The translations under genes and the position numbers were made by a program. Of a DNA stretch of 33,620 bases, positions 13,247 to 30,177 are shown piece after piece (the first letter of the stretch is position 1; every line of letters starts with the position of its first letter). The DNA is from an uncultured Bacteroidota bacterium. GTDB lineage: Bacteria > Bacteroidota > Bacteroidia > Chitinophagales > Chitinophagaceae. The notes beneath the pieces were generated by a model, which was not told the origin of the DNA, did no database searches, and worked only from the letters and a program-made list of their open reading frames with translations. The stretch covers positions 1 through 33,620 of the forward strand of contig CAIKOJ010000059.1 of NCBI GenBank assembly GCA_903829015.1. The letters are read 5' to 3'.

Positions 13247-16200
13247 CTAACCCTTCTCTAATGAATATTTTATTTCCTCATGCTCCTCGATGAATTTTAC
13301 CAGATCATCGTTGATCTCTATCTTTTTACTCTGCGATTTGAGTTTAGTCTCCATACCATCCCAGTCTGCAATATGAAACACCAATTCTGTTGTACCGGGA
13401 TGACTCTTGATGTTTTGGTCCATAAATTCCACAAAAGCCTCGTCGATCTTATGTAGTGGTATTGAAAGACGCAACCGTTTGGCCATCACCTTTCGCACAT
13501 CATCCAGCAGCATTATGTTTTGAATAGTAAATTCCATTCTGCCCGGCTGAAATCTATTCTCATCATACACACCCTGCACCATCAGCTTTTGACCGTTCAC
13601 CAGATAATTCCCAAATGGCACATAGGTTTTCTCCCACAGCATTATTTCAAAATTCCCCGAATAGTCGTTGATGGTCATCTTCCCAAACTTCGTACCTTTT
13701 TTCGAGGTAAGATGTCCGGCATCACTCACAAAACCAGCGATACGGATATTGCGCCCTTTATACGATTCTATTTCTGCAACAGGTGTAAAATCAAAATTCT
13801 CCATTTCGAATTTAAACCCATCCAGCGGATGCGCGCTTATATAAATACCTACCACCTCAATTTCCTTGTCCAATAGCTCTGGCAGTCCCCATTTCTCACA
13901 TACAGGGGGTGTAGGCGGTAGTGCCTGCGTATCCATCTCTTCTCCGCCAAACAGGCCCGGAGCCACCTTATTTGATTTCGCCTGCACAGAACTGCCATAC
14001 TTCAGTAACTTCTCCAGGTAACTCACCGGATTTGCATTTGAAATATAGAAGTACTGCGCCCTGTGTATTTCAGTAAAACAATCGAGCGCTCCTGCAAGCA
14101 CCAGACTCTCCAATGATTTTTTATTTAACGCCCGCTGGTCTACTCTTTTGATCAGATCGTTCACCGATACAAATGCACCATTCAACTCTCTTTCTTTAAC
14201 TATCTCTTCAACACCCATTTCGCCTACACCCTTAATGGCATTCAGTCCGAAACGCACCACATTTTCTTTGGCAACCGCAAACCCTTTCAAACTTTCATTA
14301 ACATCCGGCCCAAGTACCTGCAACCCCATGCGCTGGCACTCTTCCATATAGAACTTGACCTTGTCAATACTGTTTTGGTTATTCAACACCGCAGCCATAA
14401 ACTCTGCAGGATAGTGAGCCTTTAGATATGCTGTCTGATAAGCGACCAAAGCATAACACGTAGAGTGCGATTTATTGAACGCATATTGTGCGAAGGCTTC
14501 CCAGTCCGTCCAGATTTTCTGCAACTTATCTTCCGGATGCCCTTTCGCTTTGGCTCCCGTAATAAACTGCCCCTTCATTTTATCCAGCACCGCCTTCTGC
14601 TTCTTACCCATTGCCTTACGCAGTACGTCGGCATCTCCTTTACTGAATCCACCAATACTCTGCGACAGCAGCATCACCTGTTCCTGATACACAGTAATAC
14701 CATAGGTATCACCCAGGTATTCTTCCATCTCAGCCAGATCGTAGGTAATAGCTTCCTGCCCGTGCTTACGCTTAATGTAGTTAGGGATATACTCCATCGG
14801 CCCCGGACGGTACAAGGCGTTCATGGCAATCAGATCATCAAATTTATCGGGCTTCAGATTGATCAGATGCTTCTGCATTCCGGCACTTTCAAATTGGAAT
14901 GTACCGTTGGTATTCCCTTCCTGATACAACTCGTAGGTTTCTTCGTCATCCAGCGGTATCGTATCAATATCTATTACCAGATTGTAATTTCTTTTGATCA
15001 GCGCCAACGCATCTTTGATAATGGTCAGCGTCTTCAACCCCAGGAAGTCCATCTTGATTACCCCAGCATTCTCGATCACATTGCCCTCATACTGTGTGAT
15101 CAGCGAGTCTACGTCCTTAGCCATAAACACCGGCAACAGATCCGTAAGATCACTTGGCGCAATGATGATACCTGCCGCGTGAATTCCGGTATTGCGCACC
15201 GAACCTTCCAGCTTTTCAGCGTTCCGCAACACTTCGCCATGCAGGCTATCCTGCTTGTATATTTCTCTGAGCTTATTTACAAATTCTACTTCCTCTCCGC
15301 CCAAACCTTCCTTCTGATCAAGACTCCCCTCCCCTTTCAGCTCAGCGTGCAGCAGCCTCTTAAGCGATATACCGGGGCGCTCAGGCACCAGTTTGGCAAG
15401 TGCGTTACTTTCACTCAGCGGCAGATCTAGCACCCTGGCCACATCCTTGATACTGCTCTTGGCAGCCATGGTGCCATAAGTGACTATCTGAGCTACCTGG
15501 TTCTTACCGTATTTCTGCACCACATAGTCAATCACCTTCTGCCTGCCCACGTCATCAAAGTCCGTGTCTATATCGGGCATGCTCTTACGGTCAGGATTAA
15601 GAAATCGCTCGAAAAGCAGCTTGTATTTAATGGGATCAATATTCGTGATGCCAATACAATATGCCACTGCCGACCCCGCCGCCGAACCACGTCCCGGCCC
15701 CACCAGCACCGGTGGATCCATTTGCCTGCCTGCTTTAATAAAGTCACTTACAATAAGAAAGTAACCGGCAAAACCCATCGTTCTGATGGTAAACAATTCA
15801 AACTTTATACGCTCTTCAACTTCGGGTGTTATTTCACCGTACCGCTTCTTTGCACCTTCCCACGTCTCGTGTTCAAGAAACGCATTCTGGTCATTATTGA
15901 ATTCAGTAGGCACCTGAAAGTGTGGCAGCAGAATATCGCGCTCCAGCTTCAGCGGCTTTATCTTTTCAAGTACCAGATTGGTGTTATCAATAGCCTGGGG
16001 TATGTCAGAGAAGAGTGCGCTCATCTCCTCCGATGTCTTGAAGTAAAATCGGTCACTCGGAAACGCAAATCGCCCCCCCTTCACCGGAGTCTCATCATCA
16101 TCACCTATATCCTTCCACTTCGGGTCATTTTGCTTTGATCCCGTGTTCACGCACAGCAATATGTCGTGTGCATTAGCATCCACCTGATCAACGTAATGAC

Positions 16201-16867
16201 TATCGTTGCTGGCAATCACAGGCACATTGTATTTCTCAGCAAACCGCAGCAACACTTCATTCACCTTGTCCTGATCACCAATGGAGTGCCGCTGCAATTC
16301 TATATAATAATCGTCACCAAACAGATCCAACCACCAGTTAAACACCTTCTCACCCTCAGCCTCGCCTTTGCGCAGAATAGTGCGTGGCACCTCAGCCGCC
16401 AGACAACACGTAGTGGCTATCAACCCCTCATGATATTGCTTAACAAGCTCTTTGTCAATTCGCGGATACTTGCTGTACAGCCCTTCCATATACCCCAGCG
16501 AACAAAGTTTCACCAGGTTCTTATACCCTATCTCATTCTTGGCGAGCATTAACTGATGATAACGTACATCCCTGTCATCTTTCGAAAACTGCCGCTTAAA
16601 TCTGTTGTCTACCAGGTAAAATTCACATCCCACAACCGGCTTCACTTCCGGCTCCTCTATATCCTTACCTTCAGGTGTTTTACCCACTACTTTTTTCTTC
16701 TTCCATGCCTCTGCAACAAAGTCAAATGCTCCAAACATATTGCCATGATCGGTGATGGCCATTGCCGGCATACCATCCTTTCGGGCTTTGTCAAACAGCT
16801 TTGAGATGTTGGATGCCCCGTCGAGCAGGGAAAACTGAGTATGATTATGTAAGTGGGAGAATTTCAT
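13247..16867 (-). CDS. dnaE: DNA polymerase III alpha subunit
   Basis: A 1206-residue DnaE-type C-family replicative polymerase. The PHP domain opens with HLHNHTQFSLLDG (H5, H7, H9) and ITDHGNMFGAFDF at 39-51, so the metal ligands of an intact PHP domain are present, as in many non-enterobacterial DnaE proteins. The palm has GPGRGSAAGS at 391-400 and the catalytic pair in PDIDTDFDD at 431-439 (D434 and D436), with the third Asp in the VIKMDFLGL region. The fingers (YRPGPMEYIPNYIKRKHG), the tandem helix-hairpin-helix and the OB fold (about 1034-1120) follow in normal order. It is the catalytic subunit of the chromosomal replicase. The ATG at 16867 directly precedes the PHP domain. It is monocistronic as far as can be seen, and no frameshift or truncation was found. 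Confidence 0.98.
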   Translation of the reverse strand: MKFSHLHNHTQFSLLDGASNISKLFDKARKDGMPAMAITDHGNMFGAFDFVAEAWKKKKVVGKTPEGKDIEEPEVKPVVGCEFYLVDNRFKRQFSKDDRDVRYHQLMLAKNEIGYKNLVKLCSLGYMEGLYSKYPRIDKELVKQYHEGLIATTCCLAAEVPRTILRKGEAEGEKVFNWWLDLFGDDYYIELQRHSIGDQDKVNEVLLRFAEKYNVPVIASNDSHYVDQVDANAHDILLCVNTGSKQNDPKWKDIGDDDETPVKGGRFAFPSDRFYFKTSEEMSALFSDIPQAIDNTNLVLEKIKPLKLERDILLPHFQVPTEFNNDQNAFLEHETWEGAKKRYGEITPEVEERIKFELFTIRTMGFAGYFLIVSDFIKAGRQMDPPVLVGPGRGSAAGSAVAYCIGITNIDPIKYKLLFERFLNPDRKSMPDIDTDFDDVGRQKVIDYVVQKYGKNQVAQIVTYGTMAAKSSIKDVARVLDLPLSESNALAKLVPERPGISLKRLLHAELKGEGSLDQKEGLGGEEVEFVNKLREIYKQDSLHGEVLRNAEKLEGSVRNTGIHAAGIIIAPSDLTDLLPVFMAKDVDSLITQYEGNVIENAGVIKMDFLGLKTLTIIKDALALIKRNYNLVIDIDTIPLDDEETYELYQEGNTNGTFQFESAGMQKHLINLKPDKFDDLIAMNALYRPGPMEYIPNYIKRKHGQEAITYDLAEMEEYLGDTYGITVYQEQVMLLSQSIGGFSKGDADVLRKAMGKKQKAVLDKMKGQFITGAKAKGHPEDKLQKIWTDWEAFAQYAFNKSHSTCYALVAYQTAYLKAHYPAEFMAAVLNNQNSIDKVKFYMEECQRMGLQVLGPDVNESLKGFAVAKENVVRFGLNAIKGVGEMGVEEIVKERELNGAFVSVNDLIKRVDQRALNKKSLESLVLAGALDCFTEIHRAQYFYISNANPVSYLEKLLKYGSSVQAKSNKVAPGLFGGEEMDTQALPPTPPVCEKWGLPELLDKEIEVVGIYISAHPLDGFKFEMENFDFTPVAEIESYKGRNIRIAGFVSDAGHLTSKKGTKFGKMTINDYSGNFEIMLWEKTYVPFGNYLVNGQKLMVQGVYDENRFQPGRMEFTIQNIMLLDDVRKVMAKRLRLSIPLHKIDEAFVEFMDQNIKSHPGTTELVFHIADWDGMETKLKSQSKKIEINDDLVKFIEEHEEIKYSLEKG

Positions 16868-17115: not shown

Positions 17116-19626
17116 TTAATTCTTAACGAATTTCTGAACTTTACTACCGTTATCACCCTTCAGAGAGATGTAATAAACTCCTGGTGCAAGGTTTTTAATA
17201 TCAAGTTTTGTTTCGGCTTTAGTAATTACCTGTTTCATCATTTCCGAACCAATTGCATTTGTGATGGTGCATGAATTGTAAGCACCTTCTGTCATATTCA
17301 CCACCAGCTCTTCTTTGGCCGGATTTGGATAAATATGCAGATTGCTAGCGTTCACATCAACTACTTTCGACGGTGCACCTATAATGTCAGTGACAGTATT
17401 CGTCAATACCACCGGATTGTTGTCAAAATAAATGCCTGATCTGTTCTGGATAACTGTTCCAACCGGCAATCCTGCTTTTGCATTTACAGTAAATACGATC
17501 ATACCCACTGACTTTCCGTGATGCGAGCTATCTAACAGATTGATCTTAGGGAAATCAAACTTAACGATATGGTGACCTGCTGCATCAGTAAGATTAGAAA
17601 CCATCATCTTTGCTGTGCTCATCAGCATCCGCATAGACGAGATATCAACATTATTAGACAGCGTATCCATTACACGGATATTGAAAGCCGTATCAGTTCC
17701 TGTATTCTCAAACTCAATTGTGTACTGAAGTTTGGTGCCGGCTGATATATATCCTTCAGGAGTAACCTGCATGAAGTTAGGATCATAACCACCCTGAACG
17801 GTATCTACTCTCACACAAGCGTTATTTGACGGATTGATGTCGCCCGATGTTGGACTAACAGAGCAATCATTATAAACAGTGTCTCCTACTGCATACCATG
17901 GACCCGGTGCTTCGAAATGGAAACTGATGACGGTTGGTGCTGCATTTGCGGTAGACAATCCGCCTGCATTCCAGGTAACTGTTGTACCCGAAATAGAAGA
18001 AGGCGTCACACTTGACAACCAGTAATCGTATTTAGGACTAACCGTCATAGATATCGTGCCGGTAGTAAGCGCGCAATAGGTGTTATCTACAGCTATGTTA
18101 CCCCTGAAAGTGTGAATACCTGCTCTCACCGTAGGGAATATCCTCAAATCAAAGGTTGAGCCAGTAGTACAGTTCATTCCGAAGTACCTTGCCGAATCTA
18201 TACTTACACCTGTAACCAGCGTATCGGTAATATAACCAACAGACGGACAGCCAACAGTAAATCCTCCTGTTGTTGAAATGACAGTAAATTTATAAACATC
18301 ACCTGCATTACCGTAAGCTATATAATAGAATCCACTGGTAGCAGAAATTGTATCAATGGTCACACCGTTAGAGTCGACTCTGGTAAGTGATGGCTGGTAA
18401 ATATCAGGTTCGCCGCCATCCTGCACACAGTTAAAATTTGCATCCAGATAAAAACCAACAGGAATCACATTGCACATCATATAATTGTGTGTATAAGATA
18501 CCGAATCTATTGCCGTCGAACCGCTGTAAAGCACGTGTTTTACAGTATACGCACCAGAGGTTGCATAAACGTGCGTAAAATCGGAATAACCACCTGTACC
18601 TGCACTAAGTATTGGGTGTGTATCGCCACTGGCATCACCGTAATCAGTAACTACAGTAAGACCGGTATAATACGTTGGTGTTGTTACATAAAACTCTACA
18701 TCTGCACAATGGTTGGATGGGAAAACAGAAAAACTGTCCGCCGCATGTGTAACTCCACCTATTGGCATCAATGCCGTTCTGGATGTTACGGCGTTCTCAA
18801 TTTCCCTATCTGATGTGGTTGCTCCGAATTTCTCCACCATACCTACTACACTCATCTGAAAGGGATTAGAACCTGTCGGAACGGTATAAGTATAATGTTT
18901 GGTTACAGTAGTACCAGCTGTTGGGTTAGTGAACGCAGCTTCACCCCAGATACTGCCGGCAGGAGCTAAAACACTTCTTACAACAGAATTATGCCAAAAC
19001 AAGGTTGTGGGCATGATAGGATTACCGGCAGTTACCCACCACGATGTACTACCAGTGCAAGATGTAGTGCCGCCGGTGCTGCCATAGTAATTTCGCTGAT
19101 TATAGGTTGAAGTTGGACCGCTGGCGATACTGTCTTCCACCACATAGCCATTTATATACCAGTTGCCGGTAAGCGAAGAAAGCGCAGTACCCGTGATCTG
19201 AACATCCATAACCCTTGTTGACGGGTTATACGTACATAACATATCCACGTCAAAATTTGGCGACAAAGCGTTGCGCACGCCTACATTTGTCTCAAATGGC
19301 CTGTTTTGTCCTACTGCACCCGAAAAGGTTGCCCTGTCTATTGTTCCCATCGGATAACCTGCTATATACCCGGAGCCAGTACAATAAGGGTCGCCTGTTA
19401 TCTGCATAGGATCGCCGTTATGCCAGGCCATAACGATAGTATTTCCATACATTGGTATTACTTTCTCATCTATATCCTGAAAAGCGTCGGGGCAAAATCC
19501 TGCCCAGGCACCCGTTGACACTTCAAGTACCGGATTTTTTGTACCCGATGTGCCTACATGGTACTGACCGTGAGCCAGCTGCACGATGGATGATAGCGAC
19601 AATAATGATAAAAGGATTCTCTTCAT
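17116..19626 (-). CDS. Secreted T9SS protein with Omp28-like head and shared PKD/Sdr-like/DUF7619-like carrier (paralog A)
   Basis: An 836-residue exported protein with a signal peptide (cleavage about AHG-Q21). Head, residues 22-295: VLEVSTGAWAGFCPDAFQ followed by GNTIVMAWHNGDPM and GYPMGTIDR, the pattern of Omp28-related proteins with a thioredoxin-like core. Here the usual first Cys of the TWCGYCP-type motif is Ala (WAGFCP), leaving C45 alone. Carrier, about 296-750: a PKD-like segment (DYGDASGD and HVYATSGAYTVKHVLYS); an SdrB-like segment with a Ca-type loop (FYLDANFNCVQDGGEP); and a conserved-repeat domain resembling DUF7619 (GYDPNFMQVTPEG, IEFENTGTDTAFN, NRSGIYFDNN). The T9SS type A tail runs from about 763 (LHIYPNPAKEELVVN, ending KVQKFVKN). 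The carrier and tail match the next two genes upstream on the strand. The function is unknown; surface display is inferred. Confidence 0.85.
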   Translation of the reverse strand: MKRILLSLLSLSSIVQLAHGQYHVGTSGTKNPVLEVSTGAWAGFCPDAFQDIDEKVIPMYGNTIVMAWHNGDPMQITGDPYCTGSGYIAGYPMGTIDRATFSGAVGQNRPFETNVGVRNALSPNFDVDMLCTYNPSTRVMDVQITGTALSSLTGNWYINGYVVEDSIASGPTSTYNQRNYYGSTGGTTSCTGSTSWWVTAGNPIMPTTLFWHNSVVRSVLAPAGSIWGEAAFTNPTAGTTVTKHYTYTVPTGSNPFQMSVVGMVEKFGATTSDREIENAVTSRTALMPIGGVTHAADSFSVFPSNHCADVEFYVTTPTYYTGLTVVTDYGDASGDTHPILSAGTGGYSDFTHVYATSGAYTVKHVLYSGSTAIDSVSYTHNYMMCNVIPVGFYLDANFNCVQDGGEPDIYQPSLTRVDSNGVTIDTISATSGFYYIAYGNAGDVYKFTVISTTGGFTVGCPSVGYITDTLVTGVSIDSARYFGMNCTTGSTFDLRIFPTVRAGIHTFRGNIAVDNTYCALTTGTISMTVSPKYDYWLSSVTPSSISGTTVTWNAGGLSTANAAPTVISFHFEAPGPWYAVGDTVYNDCSVSPTSGDINPSNNACVRVDTVQGGYDPNFMQVTPEGYISAGTKLQYTIEFENTGTDTAFNIRVMDTLSNNVDISSMRMLMSTAKMMVSNLTDAAGHHIVKFDFPKINLLDSSHHGKSVGMIVFTVNAKAGLPVGTVIQNRSGIYFDNNPVVLTNTVTDIIGAPSKVVDVNASNLHIYPNPAKEELVVNMTEGAYNSCTITNAIGSEMMKQVITKAETKLDIKNLAPGVYYISLKGDNGSKVQKFVKN

Positions 19627-20011
19627 AACTATTTGTTTAAAGGTTTAAATCACGGTTGAATAATGTTCTAACTATTAGACGTAAATGCAACGAGCAATCT
19701 TTGCATGCATATATATTTATTTTATTTGCAGCTAAATCTACTATTATTCCGGGCACATCTTCGCCAACACAATATTAGACGTAAAATTACAATTAAACGT
19801 TAGGAGGATATTCGTATATTTATTTTCTGCGTTCTTCATTGACATTTTAGGCTACCTAATGCCATTTAGTCCGCTGAAAACCAGATTAGTTGATTTTAAA
19901 TCTGGTCTAAAAATTCTCTGCAAATACCCACAATCATATTTCACTGTGGTGGTAATACAAGAAAAATGCGCCATCCGCATCCGGATAGCGCATTTCCATT
20001 TCTTGAGCATT
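19627..20011. other. 385-base intergenic region holding a terminator, upstream region of paralog A and a 13-bp direct repeat
   Basis: I see no gene here. The right end holds the terminator of the gene at 20012. The left end must carry the promoter of the gene starting at 19626. TATTAGACGTAAA occurs twice, at 19673-19685 and 19773-19785, exactly 100 bases apart in direct orientation. An open frame running from 19859 into the next gene has no homology I recognise and is probably spurious. Confidence 0.5.
19964..19995 (-). terminator. Intrinsic terminator after paralog B
   Basis: AAATGCGC-C-ATCCG (19964-19977) pairs with CGGAT-A-GCGCATTT (19982-19995): 13 pairs around one mismatch, with a four-base loop. 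On the minus strand the stem ends in a TTTTTC run. It lies 16 bases past the stop at 20012. Confidence 0.75.
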
Positions 20012-22642
20012 TTATTTCTTAACAACTTTCCTGATCATATTACCGCTCTCCCCTCTGAGGGTAACGTAATATAAACCGGCAGGCAGTGCTTTAATATCTA
20101 CTTTAGTATATGTAGATGTAATTGACTGATGGTTCATCATTTGACCCATACTGTTAGTGATAGAGTACGATGTATAAGCGCCTGTTTCAGTCATTATGGT
20201 AAGTTCGTCCGATGCCGGGTTAGGATAAATTTCAGCTTTATTGCTGTTCACCAATACCGGTACACCATTGTCTTCTATGCAACCTGTAATATTTTCTACC
20301 CCGTTGGTCATCACTACAGCATTATCATCAAAGTAAATACCGGCGCGGTTACTTATATGAGTTCCATCTGTCAACCCGCTTTTCAGATCTGCAGTGTACA
20401 TAAAGAATCCGTCACATAGGTTGTGGTGAGAACTGTCAAGCAAATTAATATTAGGGAAGTTGAATCTTACGATATTGTAACCGCCTGTGTTGATCAGCGA
20501 TATATCCATAGCGTGTGAAGCTGTAACAACTCTTACAGTCTTAGGATCGATATTGGCAGACAATGTATCCATCACATGTATATTATATGCTGTGTCATTA
20601 CCAGTGTTCTCAAAATGTACCGTATATCTGAGCGTCTTTACACCCGGAGCCACACAAACTCTAGGCAGCACCTGCATGTAGTTCGGGTCCCAGCTGCCGG
20701 TAACGGTATCATTATTACCGCAGTTGTTGTCACCAGGGAAAGCATCTCCGCTGAATGGCATAACGGCACCACTTGTCTGAATCGTGTCGCCCACATGAGT
20801 CCATGTTGAAGGAACTTCACCACTCACGTTAATGTGAGTAGGATTAGGAGCTGTGCTGGACAAAGTAAGATCCCAGGTTATAGTATTACCAACAACCGAA
20901 GTAGGCGCAGGACGTGCACTTTGATAGTGATACTTTGGGTTCATATTGAAAACAACTGTAGCTGGCAATGCGGCACATATCTGATTGTCAACAACCATAT
21001 CTGAATTGAAGGAATGCCTGCCCGCCCTTGCGGTTGAGAATATTTGCAGATCATAGCCGGAAGTACCCGAACATTTAAACCCAAATTCCCTGTAATCATT
21101 ATTGTAAACAAGTGTTGTCAAAGTATCCAATATGTAACCAGAACCAGGGCAATTCAAAGCCAGCCCGCTTGGCAAAGCGAGTGGTGTAAATTTGTAAATA
21201 TCACCCAGATGCCCGTAAGCATTGTAATACATACCGTTAGTAGCTGAGATAGTATCAACGGTTACACCATTAGAGTCCACTTTGGTAAGAATTGGCAGAT
21301 TAATATATGGTTCGCCAAAATCTTTTGTACAGCTGTTGTTGCCATCAAAAAAGAACTTAACAGGTATAGTGTTACAGAACACGTACTCATATGTGCTGTG
21401 CACAGAGTCTATAGCTACACCACCCATGTACATGACCATTTTTATCGTGTATGTACCAGAGAAAGGATAAGTATGATTGATAACAGCATAGCCATTTGTG
21501 GTAGCACATCCGGCAGAGAAAGTAGTAATGTTGTTCTGTCCGTCTCCAAAGAATGTCTGCACCGTCATACCAGCCGAATAGTGATTCGCCATAACAGTGA
21601 TCTGTGGTCCGTTACACAATTTGTTGATCACCACACTGAAACTAGGTGTTCCGAAGTAAGAGAAAAAGGTAACCGATGTATTGATCTTCCTTACGTTGGT
21701 AGAATTATTAGAGTAGTAAATGTTTCCGGAACGATCTGATGTAAACATGTAGTTACTACCATATGCTTCCCTCGCAGGCACCCCTTCATCATACGATGTA
21801 CCGCAGCCGGCAATAGTATCTACATAGCTCGACCCAGAATGGAGCTCATATATTTTCGACCCATCTCCAAAATAAATATTACCGCTGGGATCCAGACAGA
21901 ACCGGTCGCCACCTGCCGGCAACAATACCGTAACCGCACTGGTGATTGCATCTATCTTTCTGATGCCTGTACCCACACCCGAATAATAAATATTATTTGC
22001 CGCATCAAAAGCAACTGTTGTAGCACCCATCACACCGGGTACTGTAGTAATATTATTAGTGATCGGGTCTACCCTTCTTAATACTCCCGTTGCATCAACA
22101 ATGTGCAGCACACCTGTATTATTTAATGCTATACAGCGGGCGTCACCAATATCTACACTGGTTGCCAGTGCCCCTTCGGTATACCCCGTGCCGCCGCCTG
22201 CCACTGTATTAATGATACCGGTTGCAGCAGTTACTTTCCTTACTCTTTGATTGCCTGCATCTACTATGTATAAGTTACGTGCTGCATCAATGCAAATGCT
22301 CTGAGGGCTGGCCAGATTTGCTGCCGTAGCCGGACCACCATCTCCGCCAAAACCCGCTGTACCATTACCTGCTGCAGTATAAATAAGTGCACTGGAACTT
22401 CTAACCATTCGCACTTTATGGTAACCGTAGTCGCCAACGTACACGTTACCTGAAGCATCAACTGCTACACCGGTTGTGCCCGGCAGCAATGCCGAAGTGG
22501 CACTTACGCCATCGCCCGTGGAAAACGAGCCACCGATGTAGGCTCCCACTACCGATGTAAGAATATTTACCTGCGCCGACGCAGTAAGGGTACCAACTAA
22601 AGCTGCCGTCAACAGCGCAACCGATAGTGAAAGTTTTTTCAT
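20012..22642 (-). CDS. Secreted T9SS protein with NHL-repeat propeller head and shared carrier (paralog B)
   Basis: An 876-residue exported protein with a signal peptide (cleavage about ASA-Q24). Head, about 50-325: NHL/SMP-30-like propeller repeats, seen as VAVDASGNVYVGDYGYHKVR, ICIDAARNLYIVDAGNQRVR (with TVAGGGTGYTEG between), VAFDAANNIYYSGVGTGIR and DPSGNIYFGDGSKI. Carrier, about 332-790: a PKD-like segment (TFFGDGQNN, TYPFSGTYTIKMVMY); FFFDGNNSCTKDFGEP with VDSNGVTVDTISATNG; and the DUF7619-like domain (WDPNYMQVLP, VHFENTGNDTAYN, LLDSSHH, NRAGIYFDDN). The T9SS tail starts near 804 (AEIYPNPASDELTI). Compared with paralog A, the C-terminal 540 residues align end to end while the heads are unrelated. 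The head could bind a ligand or cell-wall component; no catalytic residues are apparent. It has its own terminator at 19964-19995. Confidence 0.87.
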   Translation of the reverse strand: MKKLSLSVALLTAALVGTLTASAQVNILTSVVGAYIGGSFSTGDGVSATSALLPGTTGVAVDASGNVYVGDYGYHKVRMVRSSSALIYTAAGNGTAGFGGDGGPATAANLASPQSICIDAARNLYIVDAGNQRVRKVTAATGIINTVAGGGTGYTEGALATSVDIGDARCIALNNTGVLHIVDATGVLRRVDPITNNITTVPGVMGATTVAFDAANNIYYSGVGTGIRKIDAITSAVTVLLPAGGDRFCLDPSGNIYFGDGSKIYELHSGSSYVDTIAGCGTSYDEGVPAREAYGSNYMFTSDRSGNIYYSNNSTNVRKINTSVTFFSYFGTPSFSVVINKLCNGPQITVMANHYSAGMTVQTFFGDGQNNITTFSAGCATTNGYAVINHTYPFSGTYTIKMVMYMGGVAIDSVHSTYEYVFCNTIPVKFFFDGNNSCTKDFGEPYINLPILTKVDSNGVTVDTISATNGMYYNAYGHLGDIYKFTPLALPSGLALNCPGSGYILDTLTTLVYNNDYREFGFKCSGTSGYDLQIFSTARAGRHSFNSDMVVDNQICAALPATVVFNMNPKYHYQSARPAPTSVVGNTITWDLTLSSTAPNPTHINVSGEVPSTWTHVGDTIQTSGAVMPFSGDAFPGDNNCGNNDTVTGSWDPNYMQVLPRVCVAPGVKTLRYTVHFENTGNDTAYNIHVMDTLSANIDPKTVRVVTASHAMDISLINTGGYNIVRFNFPNINLLDSSHHNLCDGFFMYTADLKSGLTDGTHISNRAGIYFDDNAVVMTNGVENITGCIEDNGVPVLVNSNKAEIYPNPASDELTIMTETGAYTSYSITNSMGQMMNHQSITSTYTKVDIKALPAGLYYVTLRGESGNMIRKVVKK

Positions 22643-22778
22643 AAGAACATGATTGAGGTTAAAAAATAGAGTCGTTGTGTTCGTAAATATACCGAATTTT
22701 TGAAATAAAAAAATTAATATTCCTTTTTTACTCCCACAAAAATTTAAAATATTATTAACACAATAAGTATGCCAAACA

Positions 22779-25700
22779 TTACATTTTCACAAATTTCCTG
22801 ATTGCAACACCCTCCCCGCCTTTCAGAGTTACATAGTACAATCCCGGCGCAAGTTTACCTACATCGGTCTTTGTTACTGCACTACTAATATTTTGGTCCA
22901 CCAATACCTGCCCCATACTGTTGCTAATAGTGAAAGAGGTATATAAATTGAGTTCTGTTTTGATCGTAAGTTCGTTGTTGGCAGGATTTGGGAATATTTC
23001 GACTAAGTTCCTTCCTGCAACATTCCTGACCGAAGAATAATCGGCGCAGCCTTTTACATTTCGCACAGTATTGGTCATTACAACGTCGTTATCATCAAAA
23101 TAGATACCTGCCCTATGAAATATCTCGGAACCATCGGGTACTCCTGCCAATGTATTAATCTTGAAAAATACGGCTCCATCGCACAGGCCATGCTGTGAAC
23201 TATCAAGGAGATTCGCACCAGGCAGATCGAACTTAATTACGGTGTGGCCGCCTTCGAGATATTTAGTAAAATACATTTCATGAGAGCTCTCAACTATACT
23301 CAGGCTACCTGCATCCAGATTGTCGGACAAAGTATCCAATATATGCACATTGTGCGCAGTATCATTCCCTACGTTCTCGAAATGGATAACATACAGCAAC
23401 TGAGTATCTGATGCGTAACATTGAGACGGAGAGACTGCAATAAAATTAGGATCACAGCTGGCTCTGACCGTATCTTCTCTGATCACGATATTATTTGTCA
23501 AATCTATATCGGCACGCCCTACGGGAGTGACGGTAAAATCATCATTAACTGTATCTCCGGCTGTTAAATAAACAGGAGAACTCCAAATGGCAAAATACAG
23601 ATTGACAGGATGAGCGTCTGTATTAGATATTGAGTTCATGTTCCAAATTATGGTATTCCCGAAAATGCTTGATGCTGTTGGCCTTGTATTAGGTGTAGCG
23701 TATTTAGGACTGTAATGCATGGTTAGGTCTGCATCTGTTGGTGCGCAGTAATTATTATGCACATATATGTTACCCCATTGATCATGTCTGCCGGTTACCG
23801 GAACAACAGCACTGACCGATAGCTCGCAGGCTGAGCCTGAAGTACAATTCAATCCAAATGCCTTACTAGAATATGTATTAATATATGCCTGAATAGTATC
23901 AGTAATAACACCTGAAACAGGGCAAAGAGCTATTAAATTGGAAGAAAGAACAGAAAAAGTATAAACAGTCCCCGCGGCACCATACGTAGTATAATACAAA
24001 CCCGCTGTAACAGAAATGGTATCAATTGGCACACCATTTGAATCAACTTTTACAAAAGCGGGAACAGAATTCACATGCTCTGTAGAATTCATGATGCAAT
24101 CGAAATTCGCATCATAAAACAAAGTGATGGGCAGTGATCTACAAAAACGATACAAATAAGTATAGGTAACAGAATCCTGTGGAACATTGTTGCTGTACAA
24201 TACTTGCTTGATTGTGTAATGCCCGGACGAAGTATAATTATGCATCACATCATTGTATGACCACCCACCCGAGTGTATCAACGGAAGGGAGTCTTTCGTA
24301 CCGTCACCATAATATGTTTTCATATAGAGCACGGGAGACCATCCATTAACTTTCACATATACAGATGGACTGATACACGAACTATCATTGGCATGACGGA
24401 TACTGTCTGCAGTTATCATGTATTGGTATGGAACATAAATTGTGTTTGAATAAGCGAATAAACTGCTGGTAGAGCATGTAACCTGGCATCTGTAATAATA
24501 GGCACCGCCCGGCGCAAACGTAAATGTTGTTGTTGTGCCGCCGGGTATACCAGACCATGTGAAATTATCAGGTGAACTTTGCCACTGATAAGTAACATTT
24601 GGCGCTATGCTGCAGCCGGCAAGATTGAGGGTAAGTGTGCAGGCACTGCAGTAAGTGGTGCTTGTAAAAGCCGTACCTGCAACCGGCATACCAGAGCAGC
24701 AGGGAATTGACAAAAGCTGTATGCCCGCTGTCCTGGCAGAGTCTCCTCCTACGGGGCAGGTTGCTTTCGCCCTGTAAAAAGTATTGGCGCCAATACCAAC
24801 GAACGAATATGGATTGCCTGTAGCACCTGGTATGTTGCTCCAGGCAGCACTGTCGGGTGATGTTTGCCACTGTATAGTGGCTCCCAATGTCGATCCTGTA
24901 TCCCATAAACTGATAGGTGTAGACGGACAGGCGATGAGCGATGTTGAAACTACGGCGCCCGCAACCGTAGTGCCGGAACAAAGCGGGGTAATTGCTCTGT
25001 CGAGATTTGAAGAATCGCCGAAAATATAGGCATAGGAATAAGTGGTACTATCTCCTGGTGCAAGATTTCCAAGTTTCGCCACAAGGCCTATTCCAATATC
25101 TCCGGGATGATGCACACCAGCTCCATAGTACGACGTACCTCCAAAAGTGGTATTCATTGCCCATCCTTGTGCAAGATCGGCTCCCACTGATAACCCCCAT
25201 GAATTATATATCACAGCAACGGCCCGGCTGTCAATGGCTCCAAGCCCAATGTAGGCACCCGGCAATGTACCTTTGGCTGATACAAGTACTCTGTGTACAA
25301 CGTCGTTTTGATAGGTTACCCAATTGTCTGAAACAAAACTACCACCCGGCCATGTTTGATCTATATCAGGATCGCAGCTTCTGAAAAAATAAATATTATT
25401 GATGGTTGAAGATCCGATATTTTTCAACTTCACATTTATCGTTACCCAAAGCCCGCCGGTATCGACACGAGTTTCCATATTCATGTACAACTGGCCTCCA
25501 CCCGCATTATAGATTCCGTTAATTGAAGCAGATTTGTTGACCGGCGTACTTAAATAGGACCCTATCCCCGAACTGGTAAATGTGCCGGAACCAGAGTAGG
25601 TATAAGATGGCCCACCACTTTGGTAACCCTGAACCCTTGAGCCATTTGCCTGCAGCTCCCAGCCTTCAAAGGGACTGCCCGCCAAAGTAAAATCTCCCAT

Positions 25701-25964
25701 GGAGGCCGGAGAGCCAACTGCCCATCCGTCGCGGCCATAGTCACACACCATCGCAAGCCCGTTCGAAGGAAAACAGGTTGCACAATGGCTGTGATACCCT
25801 AAAGGCGGGGGGACAGTGCCAAACGAACCATTAGGACCAATTCCAATTTCTACGAAATTCCCCTGCAGATAAGCAGATGTACCCACCAACTGACCAGAAA
25901 CTATCTTGCCTTTACCACAGAGCAATATCAGTAAAATAAAAAAAAGTAAATTTTTTCTAACCAT
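22779..25964 (-). CDS. Secreted T9SS protein with beta-sandwich and Ig-like head and shared carrier (paralog C)
   Basis: A 1061-residue exported protein, the longest of the three paralogs, with a hydrophobic signal sequence (residues 5-16, cleavage about VSG-Q25). Head, 26-515: first a beta-rich domain of about 300 residues that I do not assign firmly (VTINVKLKNIGSSTINNIYFFRSCDPDID is split by me into VTINVKLKNIGSS and YFFRSCDPDID; also YSYAYIFGDSS). Then come two Ig-like repeats with the ATIQWQTSPDSAAWSNIPGA and VTYQWQSSPDNFTWSGIPGG pattern and paired cysteines. Carrier, about 517-975: a PKD-like segment (YYGDGTKDS, YTSSGHYTIKQVLYS); LFYDANFDC; VDSNGVPIDTISVT; CDPNFIAVSP; IHFENVGNDTAHN; HRAGIYFDDN. 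T9SS tail from about 989 (VEIFPNPANNELTI). No clear terminator was seen after it, so read-through into paralog B is possible. Function unknown; adhesion or binding inferred. Confidence 0.85.
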   Translation of the reverse strand: MVRKNLLFFILLILLCGKGKIVSGQLVGTSAYLQGNFVEIGIGPNGSFGTVPPPLGYHSHCATCFPSNGLAMVCDYGRDGWAVGSPASMGDFTLAGSPFEGWELQANGSRVQGYQSGGPSYTYSGSGTFTSSGIGSYLSTPVNKSASINGIYNAGGGQLYMNMETRVDTGGLWVTINVKLKNIGSSTINNIYFFRSCDPDIDQTWPGGSFVSDNWVTYQNDVVHRVLVSAKGTLPGAYIGLGAIDSRAVAVIYNSWGLSVGADLAQGWAMNTTFGGTSYYGAGVHHPGDIGIGLVAKLGNLAPGDSTTYSYAYIFGDSSNLDRAITPLCSGTTVAGAVVSTSLIACPSTPISLWDTGSTLGATIQWQTSPDSAAWSNIPGATGNPYSFVGIGANTFYRAKATCPVGGDSARTAGIQLLSIPCCSGMPVAGTAFTSTTYCSACTLTLNLAGCSIAPNVTYQWQSSPDNFTWSGIPGGTTTTFTFAPGGAYYYRCQVTCSTSSLFAYSNTIYVPYQYMITADSIRHANDSSCISPSVYVKVNGWSPVLYMKTYYGDGTKDSLPLIHSGGWSYNDVMHNYTSSGHYTIKQVLYSNNVPQDSVTYTYLYRFCRSLPITLFYDANFDCIMNSTEHVNSVPAFVKVDSNGVPIDTISVTAGLYYTTYGAAGTVYTFSVLSSNLIALCPVSGVITDTIQAYINTYSSKAFGLNCTSGSACELSVSAVVPVTGRHDQWGNIYVHNNYCAPTDADLTMHYSPKYATPNTRPTASSIFGNTIIWNMNSISNTDAHPVNLYFAIWSSPVYLTAGDTVNDDFTVTPVGRADIDLTNNIVIREDTVRASCDPNFIAVSPSQCYASDTQLLYVIHFENVGNDTAHNVHILDTLSDNLDAGSLSIVESSHEMYFTKYLEGGHTVIKFDLPGANLLDSSQHGLCDGAVFFKINTLAGVPDGSEIFHRAGIYFDDNDVVMTNTVRNVKGCADYSSVRNVAGRNLVEIFPNPANNELTIKTELNLYTSFTISNSMGQVLVDQNISSAVTKTDVGKLAPGLYYVTLKGGEGVAIRKFVKM

Positions 25965-26729: not shown

Positions 26730-26801
26730 TTCGGTAATTTTTTGATTTTTTCGTCTTCTGCGTTTTATAAAAAAATATTCCGCAATTTAATTTTTACCGC
26801 C

Positions 26802-26809
26802 TACTTTTG
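26802..26809 (+). promoter_or_regulatory. -7 box of the B12 operon promoter
   Basis: TACTTTTG is an exact TAnnTTTG match placed seven bases before the first paired base of the cobalamin riboswitch, where the transcript should begin. A -33 TTG is not evident in the AT-rich sequence upstream. Confidence 0.55.
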
Positions 26810-26815
26810 CGCCAC

Positions 26816-27006
26816 AAAGGTTCCGATCCCGACTACTGTTGGGGAAGGATGAAAAGGGAACCGGGTGTAAATCCCGGACATTACCCGATGCTGTAAGCTT
26901 CATTTAAAGCTTTTTTGCTACCTGTTTTGCCACTGTCAGGTTTCTGATTTTCAGAGCCACGACGGGAAGGCCGCAAAAAGTGAAGTAAGTCAGAAGACCT
27001 GCCTTT
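26816..27006 (+). promoter_or_regulatory. Cobalamin (adenosylcobalamin-type) riboswitch aptamer
   Basis: The conserved elements occur in order. P1 is closed by AAAGG (26816-26820) with CCTTT (27002-27006). GGTTCC lies at 26819. GGGAACCGGGTGTAAATCCC with its GG (26856-26876) is the core L4-P4-type segment. CCCGATGCTGTAAG at 26884-26897 corresponds to the CCCGC-GCTGTGA block. The B12 box GCCACGACGGGAAGG lies at 26956-26970, and GTCAGAAGACCTGCC at 26989-27003 closes the core. A variable hairpin (AAGCTT...AAGCTT) lies between. Cobalamin binding is known to lower expression downstream. Here the downstream genes encode B12 capture and import, the expected target. Confidence 0.93.
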
Positions 27007-27056
27007 ATCCTGATGAATTTCAGGTGTACTTATCGCTGCTTTCGGGACCAAAAGCA

Positions 27057-27149: not shown

Positions 27150-28124
27150 ATGCGCAGACTATTTATTCTTTTTGCAGCCCTGATAACGGGTACTGCAGCA
27201 CAGTCGCAGACTGTAGCTACTTTCGACAGCCTGAGCCTGGCTGGCACCGACACTTTTTATGTCAACTACTCTGCCTCCGGCACCGATGTAGGGTTCAATA
27301 ACGGCTTGGCTCATTTCCCCTGTGTGTACGACGCCTCGTTTGGTGGCTTCTGGAGCTATGGCTTTGCCTACTCCAATATGACAGACAGTGTCACCAGCAG
27401 TTACACCAACCAATACTCCGCTAAAACAGCCATCGGTTATGGCGGTTCTGCCAAATATGCTGTTGCATATGGCAACGACAATAAAGTAATACTACAAGGC
27501 GCAGCAATGGGCAACAGGGTGAGTGGCTTTTACGTCACCAATAACACTTATGCATACAACAGCATGAGAGATGGCGATGGTTTCGCACGCAAATTCCACA
27601 ACGGCGACTGGTTCAAACTTACCGTACGCGCCTATTCAGGTGGCATACTGAAGCCCGATAGTGTAGGAATGTACCTGGCCAATTTCCTGTATCCTGATTC
27701 TACCATGAATTATATACTCAGAACATGGCAGTGGGTTAACCTGCTCCCGCTGGGTAATGCCGATAGCCTGCTGTTTACACTATCATCTACCGACAATGGC
27801 TCATTCGGCATGAACACTCCGGCCTATTTTTGTATAGATAATTTCACCACCGCAGAATCTCACACATTGCAGGCAAATGTTGCACCCGCAGCTATTACAG
27901 CCAAAGTATATCCTAACCCTACGCACAACTCTTTGTTCATAGACATGAGCGAAAACGATGCGCAAAGTGCTACTATTCTTAATGCTGCCGGCAATGTAAT
28001 GAGCGTTACTGAGATCACCACCCAACATACTGAAATGAATACAGCAACTTTACCGGCAGGTGTATATTTGCTGCAATTAAAGGGCACAAACAAATCCGCC
28101 ACTTTACGTTTCATAAAAGGTTGA
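27150..28124 (+). CDS. DUF4465 (BtuH-like) surface protein with T9SS sorting domain
   Basis: A 324-residue exported protein, first gene after the cobalamin riboswitch. A signal peptide (cleavage about residue 18-20) is followed by a DUF4465 domain: FWSYGFAYSNMTDSVTSSY, TNQYSAKTAIGYGGSAKYAV and YFCIDNF near its end. DUF4465 proteins of Bacteroides include, as I recall, BtuH, a surface B12-binding protein. The C-terminal 73 residues from 252 form a T9SS type A domain (VYPNPTHNSLFIDM, then LPAGVYLLQLKG). Inferred role: surface capture of cobalamin for the TonB receptor encoded three genes later. There is no lipobox, so tethering would rely on T9SS rather than lipidation. The next gene begins 14 bases after the stop. 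Confidence 0.88.
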   Translation: MRRLFILFAALITGTAAQSQTVATFDSLSLAGTDTFYVNYSASGTDVGFNNGLAHFPCVYDASFGGFWSYGFAYSNMTDSVTSSYTNQYSAKTAIGYGGSAKYAVAYGNDNKVILQGAAMGNRVSGFYVTNNTYAYNSMRDGDGFARKFHNGDWFKLTVRAYSGGILKPDSVGMYLANFLYPDSTMNYILRTWQWVNLLPLGNADSLLFTLSSTDNGSFGMNTPAYFCIDNFTTAESHTLQANVAPAAITAKVYPNPTHNSLFIDMSENDAQSATILNAAGNVMSVTEITTQHTEMNTATLPAGVYLLQLKGTNKSATLRFIKG

Positions 28125-28138
28125 TCCGGTACAAATCA

Positions 28139-29131
28139 ATGAAAAACGTTTACCTATTCATCTATTTTTGGCTGTTGTGCAATAGTGCAGATGCTCAGTA
28201 TGCGCCACAGGCTGGCCTGCCTGGCAGCGATGCCATTCCGGCAACCAATAGCAGGTTTGTGAATTGGGCTGCAAACTGTACCCTTACCCGCGGACTGATG
28301 AATATCGCAGATGCCTCATTGGGTTTTGCATCTGCCGGCGACAGCTCCGCCGCCATAGGTGCAGCCGACAATGGTATCGTAAGCCTTGGCGACAGCGGCG
28401 TGGCAGTAGTTACGTTCGCCAAGCCTATATACGATGGCCCCGGCGCAGACTTCGCAGTTTTTGAGAACGGATTTATCAACACCGCCAACGATTCAGAATC
28501 GTACATGGAACTGGCTTTTGTAGAAGTAAGTTCAGATGGCATCTATTACTTCCGTTTCCCTGCATCGTCCAATACTCAGATCAATGTACAAACCGGCAAC
28601 GGCAACTATCTCAACGCTTGCAACATCAACAACCTTGCAGGTAAGTACATAGCCATGTATGGCACCCCCTTCGATCTTCAGGAACTGGCTGGCACAGCTG
28701 GGCTCAACATTGACCACATCACCCACATCCGCATAGTAGATGTTGTGGGTTCAATTTTAGCCAATGCATCGCACGATTTCACCGGTCGTGCGATCAACGA
28801 CCCCTACCCTACTCCATTCCCATCATGCGGGTTCGATCTCGATGCTGTTGGCGTAATACATAACATTGAAACATCAGTAAGATCAGTTACTTCTGGTCCG
28901 GAAATTAGTGTATTCCCAAACCCGGCTTCAGACCAGCTAACCATATCAACCGCAACCCCTACGTCAATAACAGCAGTGCTCACTAACCTTACCGGCAGTG
29001 TGTTGCAGCAAAAAGAAATAACCCCGGCAGACAATACTATACAGGTATCGCAGTATCCTACCGGAATGTATTACCTTGTTTTACAAGACGCATCCGGAAA
29101 CAAATGGTCGCAGATAGTTACAAAACACTGA
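28139..29131 (+). CDS. Secreted protein of the B12 operon with T9SS sorting domain, family without an established function
   Basis: A 330-residue exported protein (signal cleavage about ADA-Q20). I chose the ATG at 28139; a TTG at 28121 in the same frame would overlap the previous stop. The body (about 20-245) is a beta-rich domain with VSLGDSGVAVVTFAKPIYDG, GADFAVFENGF, MELAFVEVSSDGIYYFRFPA, a long NxN-rich middle and THIRIVDVVGS before GFDLDAVGVIHN, a lectin- or discoidin-like jelly-roll pattern with acidic loops that may bind Ca. The last 73 residues are a T9SS type A domain (VFPNPASDQLTIST, ending SQIVTKH). Relatives next to BtuB-type receptors occur, from memory, across Bacteroidota, but no role is established. 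Position between the DUF4465 and propeller genes, with a 28-base overlap into the latter, suggests a part in cobalamin capture. Confidence 0.85.
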   Translation: MKNVYLFIYFWLLCNSADAQYAPQAGLPGSDAIPATNSRFVNWAANCTLTRGLMNIADASLGFASAGDSSAAIGAADNGIVSLGDSGVAVVTFAKPIYDGPGADFAVFENGFINTANDSESYMELAFVEVSSDGIYYFRFPASSNTQINVQTGNGNYLNACNINNLAGKYIAMYGTPFDLQELAGTAGLNIDHITHIRIVDVVGSILANASHDFTGRAINDPYPTPFPSCGFDLDAVGVIHNIETSVRSVTSGPEISVFPNPASDQLTISTATPTSITAVLTNLTGSVLQQKEITPADNTIQVSQYPTGMYYLVLQDASGNKWSQIVTKH

Positions 29132-30177
29132 TCGTTGTTCTTTGCTGCCTGCTGGCATCATGCGTCAAAGACAAACCTGACGATGTGGTTAAGCTAACAC
29201 CATCGGCGGGCAGCAACATCTATGTAGTTTGCGAGGGCCAGTTTATGAACGGCGATGCATCATTATATACCTACCAACCACTTAGCGACAGCGTATTCGG
29301 CGACATCTACAAAAGCACTAACAACCAGCCACTGGGCGATGTTTTCCAAAGTATGGTGCGTATTGGCGACAAACTATTCCTTTGCATCAACAACTCTGAT
29401 AAAGTAGTAGTACTCAATGCCACTAATTGGTTGCAAGTGGCAAGTATCCCGGTTCCCAAACCTCGTTACATAATGCAGATCAGTGCAAGTAAAGCCTATG
29501 TAACTTCTGAGTACAGCAATAAGGTGTATATCATCGATCCACAGTCGTTATCAATAACAGATACATTCGCGCTGCCTTTTATAAATACTGAAGGCATGTA
29601 CCTTTACGACAACTACGCATACATCTGCACCTGGGATACCGGCTGCAATGTATTGTATAAAGTAGATGCCGGCACCAACACGGTTACCCAGAAAATCAAA
29701 CTTGCAGGCAGTGCACCAAAAGATGTTTTGCAGGATAAATACAATCTGCTATGGGTGCTCTCCGGAAATAAGTTGCCGGGGATGCAAGCTATGTTAACGC
29801 GCATCGATCCCTCGTCCGGTAGCATTGTGGGTCAATACCAATTTCCGGCGGACGTTGATGTGATGAAACCGGTATTTAATAAAACCAGAGACTCACTCTA
29901 TTTCATTGAAGTAGACTATAACGGTGGAACCGTGAATAACGGCATCTACAGAATGTCGGTTGCAGATCTAACCTTGCCGTCCAAACCATTTATTGCTGCC
30001 AGGCAGTACCAGTATTTTTACGCACTCGGCATCGACCCCATTACCGGCAATATTTTCGTTGGCGACCCAAAAGGCTTTATTCAGAAAGGCAGCGTATATA
30101 TTTACCAACCCGACGGCAAGCAGGTAAAAAGCTTCACTGTGGGCAAGGGGCCCGGCCATTTTTATTTCGACGAATGA
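29104..30177 (+). CDS. BtuG-like YncE/DUF5074 beta-propeller lipoprotein
   Basis: A 357-residue lipoprotein: signal TLIVVLCCLLASC with lipidated C20. The mature part is a YncE-type seven-bladed propeller, with repeating blades such as DKVVVLNATNWLQVASIPVP, NKVYIIDPQSLSITDTFALP, NVLYKVDAGTNTVTQKIKLA and AMLTRIDPSSGSIVGQYQFP, and a closing KQVKSFTVGKGPGHFYFDE. In Bacteroides the equivalent BtuG sits on BtuB and binds B12 with very high affinity; the same role here is inferred from fold, lipoprotein signal and operon position. The start overlaps the preceding gene by 28 bases. The stop TGA is shared in an ATGA junction with the TonB receptor gene, indicating tight translational coupling. Confidence 0.9.
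   Translation: MVADSYKTLIVVLCCLLASCVKDKPDDVVKLTPSAGSNIYVVCEGQFMNGDASLYTYQPLSDSVFGDIYKSTNNQPLGDVFQSMVRIGDKLFLCINNSDKVVVLNATNWLQVASIPVPKPRYIMQISASKAYVTSEYSNKVYIIDPQSLSITDTFALPFINTEGMYLYDNYAYICTWDTGCNVLYKVDAGTNTVTQKIKLAGSAPKDVLQDKYNLLWVLSGNKLPGMQAMLTRIDPSSGSIVGQYQFPADVDVMKPVFNKTRDSLYFIEVDYNGGTVNNGIYRMSVADLTLPSKPFIAARQYQYFYALGIDPITGNIFVGDPKGFIQKGSVYIYQPDGKQVKSFTVGKGPGHFYFDE

Follow-up and report, generated by a model that had tools for sequence, protein, structure and literature searches.

Three adjacent type IX secretion cargo genes with a shared carrier and unrelated heads in a genome of the family Chitinophagaceae

Closest described systems and the three-gene array

Export and surface attachment of proteins by the type IX secretion system (T9SS) are set out in parts of the review PMC10202324. 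Fibrillar adhesins, as described in sections of PMC10952558, combine varied N-terminal modules with common beta modules and a C-terminus that anchors them to the surface, the modules being shuffled over evolutionary time. For the DUF7619 family (PF24595), a Lys-Asp-Asn isopeptide bond was predicted in a 2025 survey (PMC12617251), portions of which also report some DUF11 domains without the bond residues, so that such a loss has precedents in the wider group. Likeness to each of these systems was found in three consecutive genes, named here A, B and C, of an uncultured bacterium of the family Chitinophagaceae. The genes lie in the window, i.e., the whole stretch of 33,620 nucleotides analyzed here, which makes up the entire contig C59 in a draft genome of 3.99 Mb. 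A, B and C are probably long-separated paralogous genes of T9SS type-A cargo in one array, in which old joins of heads to carriers are co-inherited and which changes by whole genes.

The three proteins share a C-terminal part of about 545 residues, starting near residues 293, 329 and 516 in A, B and C, respectively. Its identity in pairwise protein alignments is 46.5% for A/B (E 9e-154), 41.7% for A/C (E 3e-129) and 40.2% for B/C (E 2e-122), which bears out the common carrier of about 540 residues in three adjacent proteins claimed in a preliminary description of this DNA. Domain DUF7619 (119.1, 115.9 and 100.1 bits in A, B and C; Pfam cut-off 27) and a T9SS tail, matching both Por_Secre_tail (50, 50 and 40 bits; cut-off 27) and TIGR04183 (46.5, 40.5 and 46.2 bits; cut-off 23), were found in all three proteins, as had been described. 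The PKD-like and SdrB-like segments proposed together with them were not recovered: Pfam PKD matched B alone, with E 0.13 and below its cut-off, and no SdrD_B match at E ≤ 1 was obtained with Pfam for the three proteins. Searches of solved structures with A and C matched the T9SS tail, everything else being weak; for the heads, the best match of these two queries had E 0.37 (35 kDa hemin binding protein, A residues 1–53).

The N-terminal heads differ. Head A is assigned to Omp28 by a narrow margin (36.1 bits, cut-off 34.9), in agreement with the Omp28/thioredoxin-like head described before, and the earlier assignment of head B to NHL agrees with matches of TEN_NHL (38.4 bits, cut-off 27.1) and NHL (25.1 bits, cut-off 20). 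Head C, described earlier as a beta-sandwich with two Ig-like repeats, contains two repeats of about 94 residues, 40% identical to each other (E 1e-9); no Pfam head match at E ≤ 1 was found for it. No relationship among the heads was detected, in line with the earlier description: the best blastp E-value between them is 0.065, and profile–profile probabilities are 0.1 percent for A/B and 0.2 percent for both A/C and B/C. In a profile comparison of the head families of all types distinguished below, probabilities of 0.1–1.0 percent were obtained, except for types D and N (99.2). In both of these head sets the matching part is C-terminal, and it most likely represents an Ig-like repeat carried by some members, not the head itself.

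The first domain of head C is not confined to the carrier. The loci retrieved contain 27 proteins with a C-type first domain: the carrier is present in 7 and a tail without the carrier in 2, while 18 are cut by the end of the locus. Six C-type first domains were listed in the window's own genome, and window C alone shares a contig with a DUF7619 match; C-type first domains thus also occur without the carrier. One carrier-free case, in which a C-type head is joined to a T9SS tail, is L123:6388-9033 (G002:C6), located 61 bases after a gene for an NHL-headed carrier.

Hydrophobic N-termini, putative leaders, are seen by eye in the translations of A, B and C. The trio resembles T9SS type-A cargo (PF18962/TIGR04183) in its type-A tails above the cut-offs and in the presence of SprA, the component by which the machinery was searched (model TIGR04189), in the same genome (2436 bits, cut-off 200); no feature setting the trio outside this group was found. 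Membership of the DUF7619 family is indicated by the domain matches; the aspartate of the predicted bond is kept in all 71 headed carriers of the sample described below. The isopeptide-bonded domains, as presented in portions of PMC12617251, differ from those of the trio, in which the bond lysine is Met, Met and Ile and the asparagine is His in C. In contrast to fibrillar adhesins, as described in the sections of PMC10952558, each protein of the trio has one DUF7619 and no tandem stalk was found, and the heads have no match to a known adhesive domain among Pfam matches at E ≤ 1, although an undescribed one is possible. Of the "constant stalk" of the preliminary description, the shared carrier therefore remains and the tandem stalk does not, the single DUF7619 of each protein being without the predicted isopeptide lysine. 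By analogy, the trio would work like shuffled surface adhesins, yet it is not classed as a fibrillar adhesin because neither a tandem stalk nor a known adhesive domain was found.

The window's own genome contains 12 DUF7619 matches and at least 150 T9SS tails. DUF7619 is present in 35 of 35 genomes of the genus, with 2–17 copies per genome. Of 99 genomes sampled across the class, 59 have it; none was found in the two genomes that belong to other genera of the same family. A 444-residue segment of carrier A has a match in all 40 relatives listed, 25 of which belong to this genus, including the window's own genome. The circumstance named earlier as depriving the adjacency of meaning, namely a very common carrier, is therefore half true, given the presence of DUF7619 throughout the genus. 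In a limited literature search on the modularity of T9SS cargo, on shuffling of domains and on Omp28, this family was not met; among the papers searched, DUF7619 appeared in one.

Descent of carriers and heads

A sample of 99 carriers was taken from the top of the relatives' match list. Seven partial or divergent ones were dropped (both fragments of a broken gene in L072, together with L013, L015, L017, L019 and L021), and the remaining 92 represent 24 genomes: the window's genome, its sister and 22 other genomes of the genus. Their heads were labeled NHL (N, 28), headless (21), a mixed class of Big_2 and other heads (18; label B, not to be confused with gene B), C (8), S (6), A (5), M (3), D (2) and L (1). 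Labels S, M, D and L were assigned by us by eye and by clustering, Pfam head families at E ≤ 0.01 being absent save for weak matches.

By the carrier tree, head type follows carrier descent. Head labels change 12 times, compared with a minimum possible of 8 and a mean of 55.1 in shuffled sets; none of 200 shuffles gave a value as low. Carriers with C heads form one clade of 8 that includes window C (support 91 in the quick tree, 98/92 in the careful tree, 99% of 200 bootstrap trees). The other members of the clade that contains the carrier of window C are C-headed and come from six other genomes, and in neither tree is A or B nearest to it. The five carrier-borne A heads form one clade (100/99) nested among carrier-free relatives in the head tree, and their carriers constrained as one clade were not rejected (p-AU 0.707, approximately unbiased (AU) test). 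Within types, identity of heads correlates with identity of carriers (r 0.64 for N, 0.77 for C, 0.94 for A and 0.88 for S), the observed value being reached by 0, 0, 17 and 0 of 999 permutations, respectively.

The sister species AM_0832 (Sphingobacteriales bacterium), with 9 DUF7619 matches in its genome, is collinear across the window. Its genes A and B carry the same heads and are, along their length, 88% (A) and 86–90% (B) identical to those of the window. Gene C is absent; in its place there is a stretch of 42 nucleotides corresponding to the 3′ end of C (39 of 42 identical). Over the last 48 nucleotides this relic matches C at 41 positions, B at 26 and A at 25. The simplest reading is that gene C was lost in the sister lineage, in which case the trio predates the split of the species; a less likely alternative is that the window lineage gained C next to an unrelated tail. 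Approximate ratios of nonsynonymous to synonymous divergence (dN/dS) against the sister are 0.046, 0.030 and 0.098 for the head, carrier and tail of A, 0.044 and 0.071 for the head and tail of B, and 0.014 for dnaE; they are rough, since dS exceeds 1 throughout and is undefined for carrier B. Heads A and B would thus be under purifying selection, with no sign of faster selective diversification.

Shared indels, tried as a marker of C-type carriers, failed to separate head types. A loop similar to VTG-HDQWG (carrier A residues ~486–520 and matching columns) is present in carriers of several head types but missing from close relatives of these, a hint that carriers are mosaic.

Residue losses and rival explanations

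In DUF7619 of A, B and C, the positions of the Lys-Asp-Asn triad are occupied by M-D-N, M-D-N and I-D-H. The lysine was taken as profile position 5, as in the example given in the portions of PMC12617251 concerned; Asp and Asn were placed by motif, 2–3 positions off its numbering. The lysine is kept in 0 of 71 headed carriers, where I, M, V or L takes its place in every row, and in 14 of 21 headless ones; Asp is kept in 71 and Asn in 57 of the 71. In other genera, 28 of 30 best matches keep the lysine, these being the top match of each of 30 genomes and so biased to the consensus. The isopeptide bond is therefore presumably absent from DUF7619 of head-bearing carriers. The 14 lysine rows lie on one side of a well-supported branch (99), so a single loss may account for the pattern. 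Seven headless carriers without the lysine are placed inside the headed part of the tree; accordingly, loss of the lysine and gain of a head are not strictly coincident. Two headless triplets (L073 and L075) each contain one carrier with the isopeptide lysine and two without it. Cysteines occur at six carrier positions in 82–92 of 92 rows. They were considered as a replacement of the isopeptide lock and rejected, the same six being present in lysine-bearing carriers (14 of 14 at each position).

Head A differs from thioredoxin-type oxidoreductases at the CxxC active site, where the alignment gives AGFC. None of the five carrier-borne A heads has both cysteines, while CxxC is present in all nine close carrier-free relatives from the genus (42–50% identity, 378–409 aa) and in one order-level relative; the comparison covers relatives with a comparable motif and leaves out several distant matches (28–33%) in which it was not comparable or which were not fetched whole. 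Since the fused heads are one nested clade, loss of CxxC was perhaps one event. A relative of head A in the window's own genome (contig C55) has a T9SS tail.

From what is known of the T9SS, the signal sequence would take these proteins to the periplasm, the C-terminal tail would direct export via the SprA translocon, and the tail would be removed and the protein attached at the surface. The carrier, about 460 residues, would serve as a spacer of several beta domains with six well-conserved cysteines and DUF7619 last, and the head would be a binding module without enzymatic activity, on carriers without the lysine of the predicted bond and, in head A, without the thioredoxin CxxC. Joins of heads to carriers would be old and rare, with several for NHL heads, and each head would since have been inherited together with its carrier, the array evolving through gain and loss of whole genes. 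A further, doubtful proposal is a display scaffold in which a locked headless carrier lost the lysine once, its descendants took unrelated heads and an enzyme-like head became a pseudo-enzyme, loss of the lock and gain of heads being linked.

The preliminary description saw in the array a display cassette with heads swapped onto a constant stalk. In such a head-swapping cassette, duplication in place would be followed by replacement of heads through recombination near the junction, giving a diversifying display. A shared carrier under many heads was indeed found, and some exchange or re-fusion of heads must have happened in the genus, because NHL heads change repeatedly on the carrier tree and tandem sister carriers in L079:293-6032 (G004:C35), supported by 99 in the quick and 89/98 in the careful tree, bear different heads, D and NHL. 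This pair is the clearest single case of head replacement on the tree. Three heads in one array are rare: among 13 independent arrays (a count that takes window and sister as one and omits the broken gene in L072), 11 have a single head label and 2, the window and L079, are mixed. As the mark of this locus, exchange did not hold up, labels being clustered on the tree and the sister's heads the same. The carrier of C clusters with C-headed carriers elsewhere, A and B have the same heads in the sister species, the heads appear to be under purifying selection, and the longest DNA match among the three genes is 41 nucleotides at 80%, so there was no recent exchange among them. An active cassette here is accordingly unlikely, and the sequences suggest that heads and carriers are slowly mixed and matched across the genus instead of being actively swapped at this locus.

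Several observations weigh against co-inheritance of old joins. The window trio and two sister genes forced as one clade cost 25.5 log units with 92 rows (p-AU 0.244) and 54.3 with 49 rows (p-AU 0.058); such a clade is disfavored, but the AU test does not reject it, so duplication in place with old replacement of heads is possible. NHL heads are scattered on the carrier tree, with 8 changes (7 in the careful tree), at least 3 of them forced by well-supported branches. Agreement between nearest carrier and head type is 81% next to the head and drops to 64% at the opposite end of the carrier, a pattern expected from recombination inside carriers. The dN/dS values are rough, as stated above, and structure predictions were too poor to use, both for the carrier (five sequences, pLDDT (predicted local distance difference test) 47.9) and for head C (single sequence, mean pLDDT 36.7). 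Convergent or relaxed decay would make the carrier a secretion-compatible linker with chance heads, the losses of lysine and CxxC being drift without display function. Headless carriers (21 of 92) and the possibility that each loss is one inherited event are consistent with it; low dN/dS in the heads and carrier A, six conserved cysteines and the constrained replacement of the lysine by I, M, V or L in 71 headed rows argue against it and leave it quite improbable. That the heads are distant homologs that merely diverged is very improbable, since A and B belong to different Pfam families and the three window head families gave the low profile probabilities reported above, even if all heads may be partly beta-rich. 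Long-separated paralogs with co-inherited old joins thus remain the probable explanation.

Setting of the array and meaning for the genus

Positions of the genes and their parts are given in Table 1. All three are on the minus strand with intergenic gaps of 385 and 136 bases, and a dnaE-like gene (13247-16867) adjoins the array.

Table 1. Genes A, B and C and their parts in the window
Feature	Position	Strand	Content or basis
Gene A, 836 aa	17116..19626	-	Omp28/thioredoxin-like head, carrier, T9SS tail
Gene B, 876 aa	20012..22642	-	NHL head, carrier, T9SS tail
Gene C, 1061 aa	22779..25964	-	Unannotated head, two Ig-like repeats, carrier, T9SS tail
Head A, residues 1-292 including putative signal sequence	18751..19626	-	Omp28 match
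Codons 42-45 of A (A-G-F-C)	19492..19503	-	Site of CxxC in carrier-free relatives; alignment, hand-counted coordinates
Carrier A, residues 293-836	17119..18750	-	Pairwise alignment
DUF7619 of A, Met619 at isopeptide-lysine position	17389..17784	-	Pfam and profile alignment
T9SS type-A sorting tail of A	17125..17334	-	Profile matches
Head B, residues 1-328, NHL repeats	21659..22642	-	TEN_NHL and NHL matches
Carrier B, residues 329-876	20015..21658	-	Pairwise alignment
DUF7619 of B, Met at isopeptide-lysine position	20291..20689	-	Pfam and profile alignment
T9SS type-A sorting tail of B	20021..20230	-	Profile matches
Head C, residues 1-515	24420..25964	-	Residues ~1-325 also found on other proteins; two ~94-aa repeats at 329-515
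Carrier C, residues 516-1061	22782..24419	-	Pairwise alignment
DUF7619 of C, Ile at lysine and His at asparagine position	23058..23453	-	Pfam and profile alignment
T9SS type-A sorting tail of C	22788..22997	-	Profile matches

No carrier was found 5′ of dnaE in eight relatives with 12–15 kb read per relative, three further ones with less than 4.5 kb being left out of the count. The window's downstream neighbors are not beside dnaE in the relatives, so an empty site is definable in the sister only. The guanine-cytosine (GC) content of the heads is 4.6–6.9 points above that of the carriers; the difference in third-position GC has no constant direction, and for this reason foreign DNA is not claimed.

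Beyond the array, the window contains a cobalamin riboswitch (26801-27020, plus strand; 95.4 bits, gathering threshold 31.5) just upstream of genes at 27150-32135, which encode a DUF4465 protein with a T9SS tail, a second T9SS-tailed protein, a DUF5074 protein and a TonB receptor. Together they resemble an operon for uptake of vitamin B12, some of whose products would be exported by the T9SS, and may be linked to known B12-binding surface proteins. A further T9SS-tailed protein with a match to Sortilin/BNR-type repeats is encoded at 5304-8105 (minus strand).

For this genus of Bacteroidota, the secreted repertoire would include one carrier family with many heads, the heads mostly inherited with the carrier. 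The loss of the lysine from all headed carriers may be a concrete case of covalently locked domains losing their predicted lock, and the loss of CxxC from the fused A heads a case of an enzyme fold re-used for display. If the scaffold proposal is true, a genus-wide scaffold would turn free-standing T9SS cargo into surface binding modules, among them NHL, Big_2, Omp28/thioredoxin-like, C-type and other heads.

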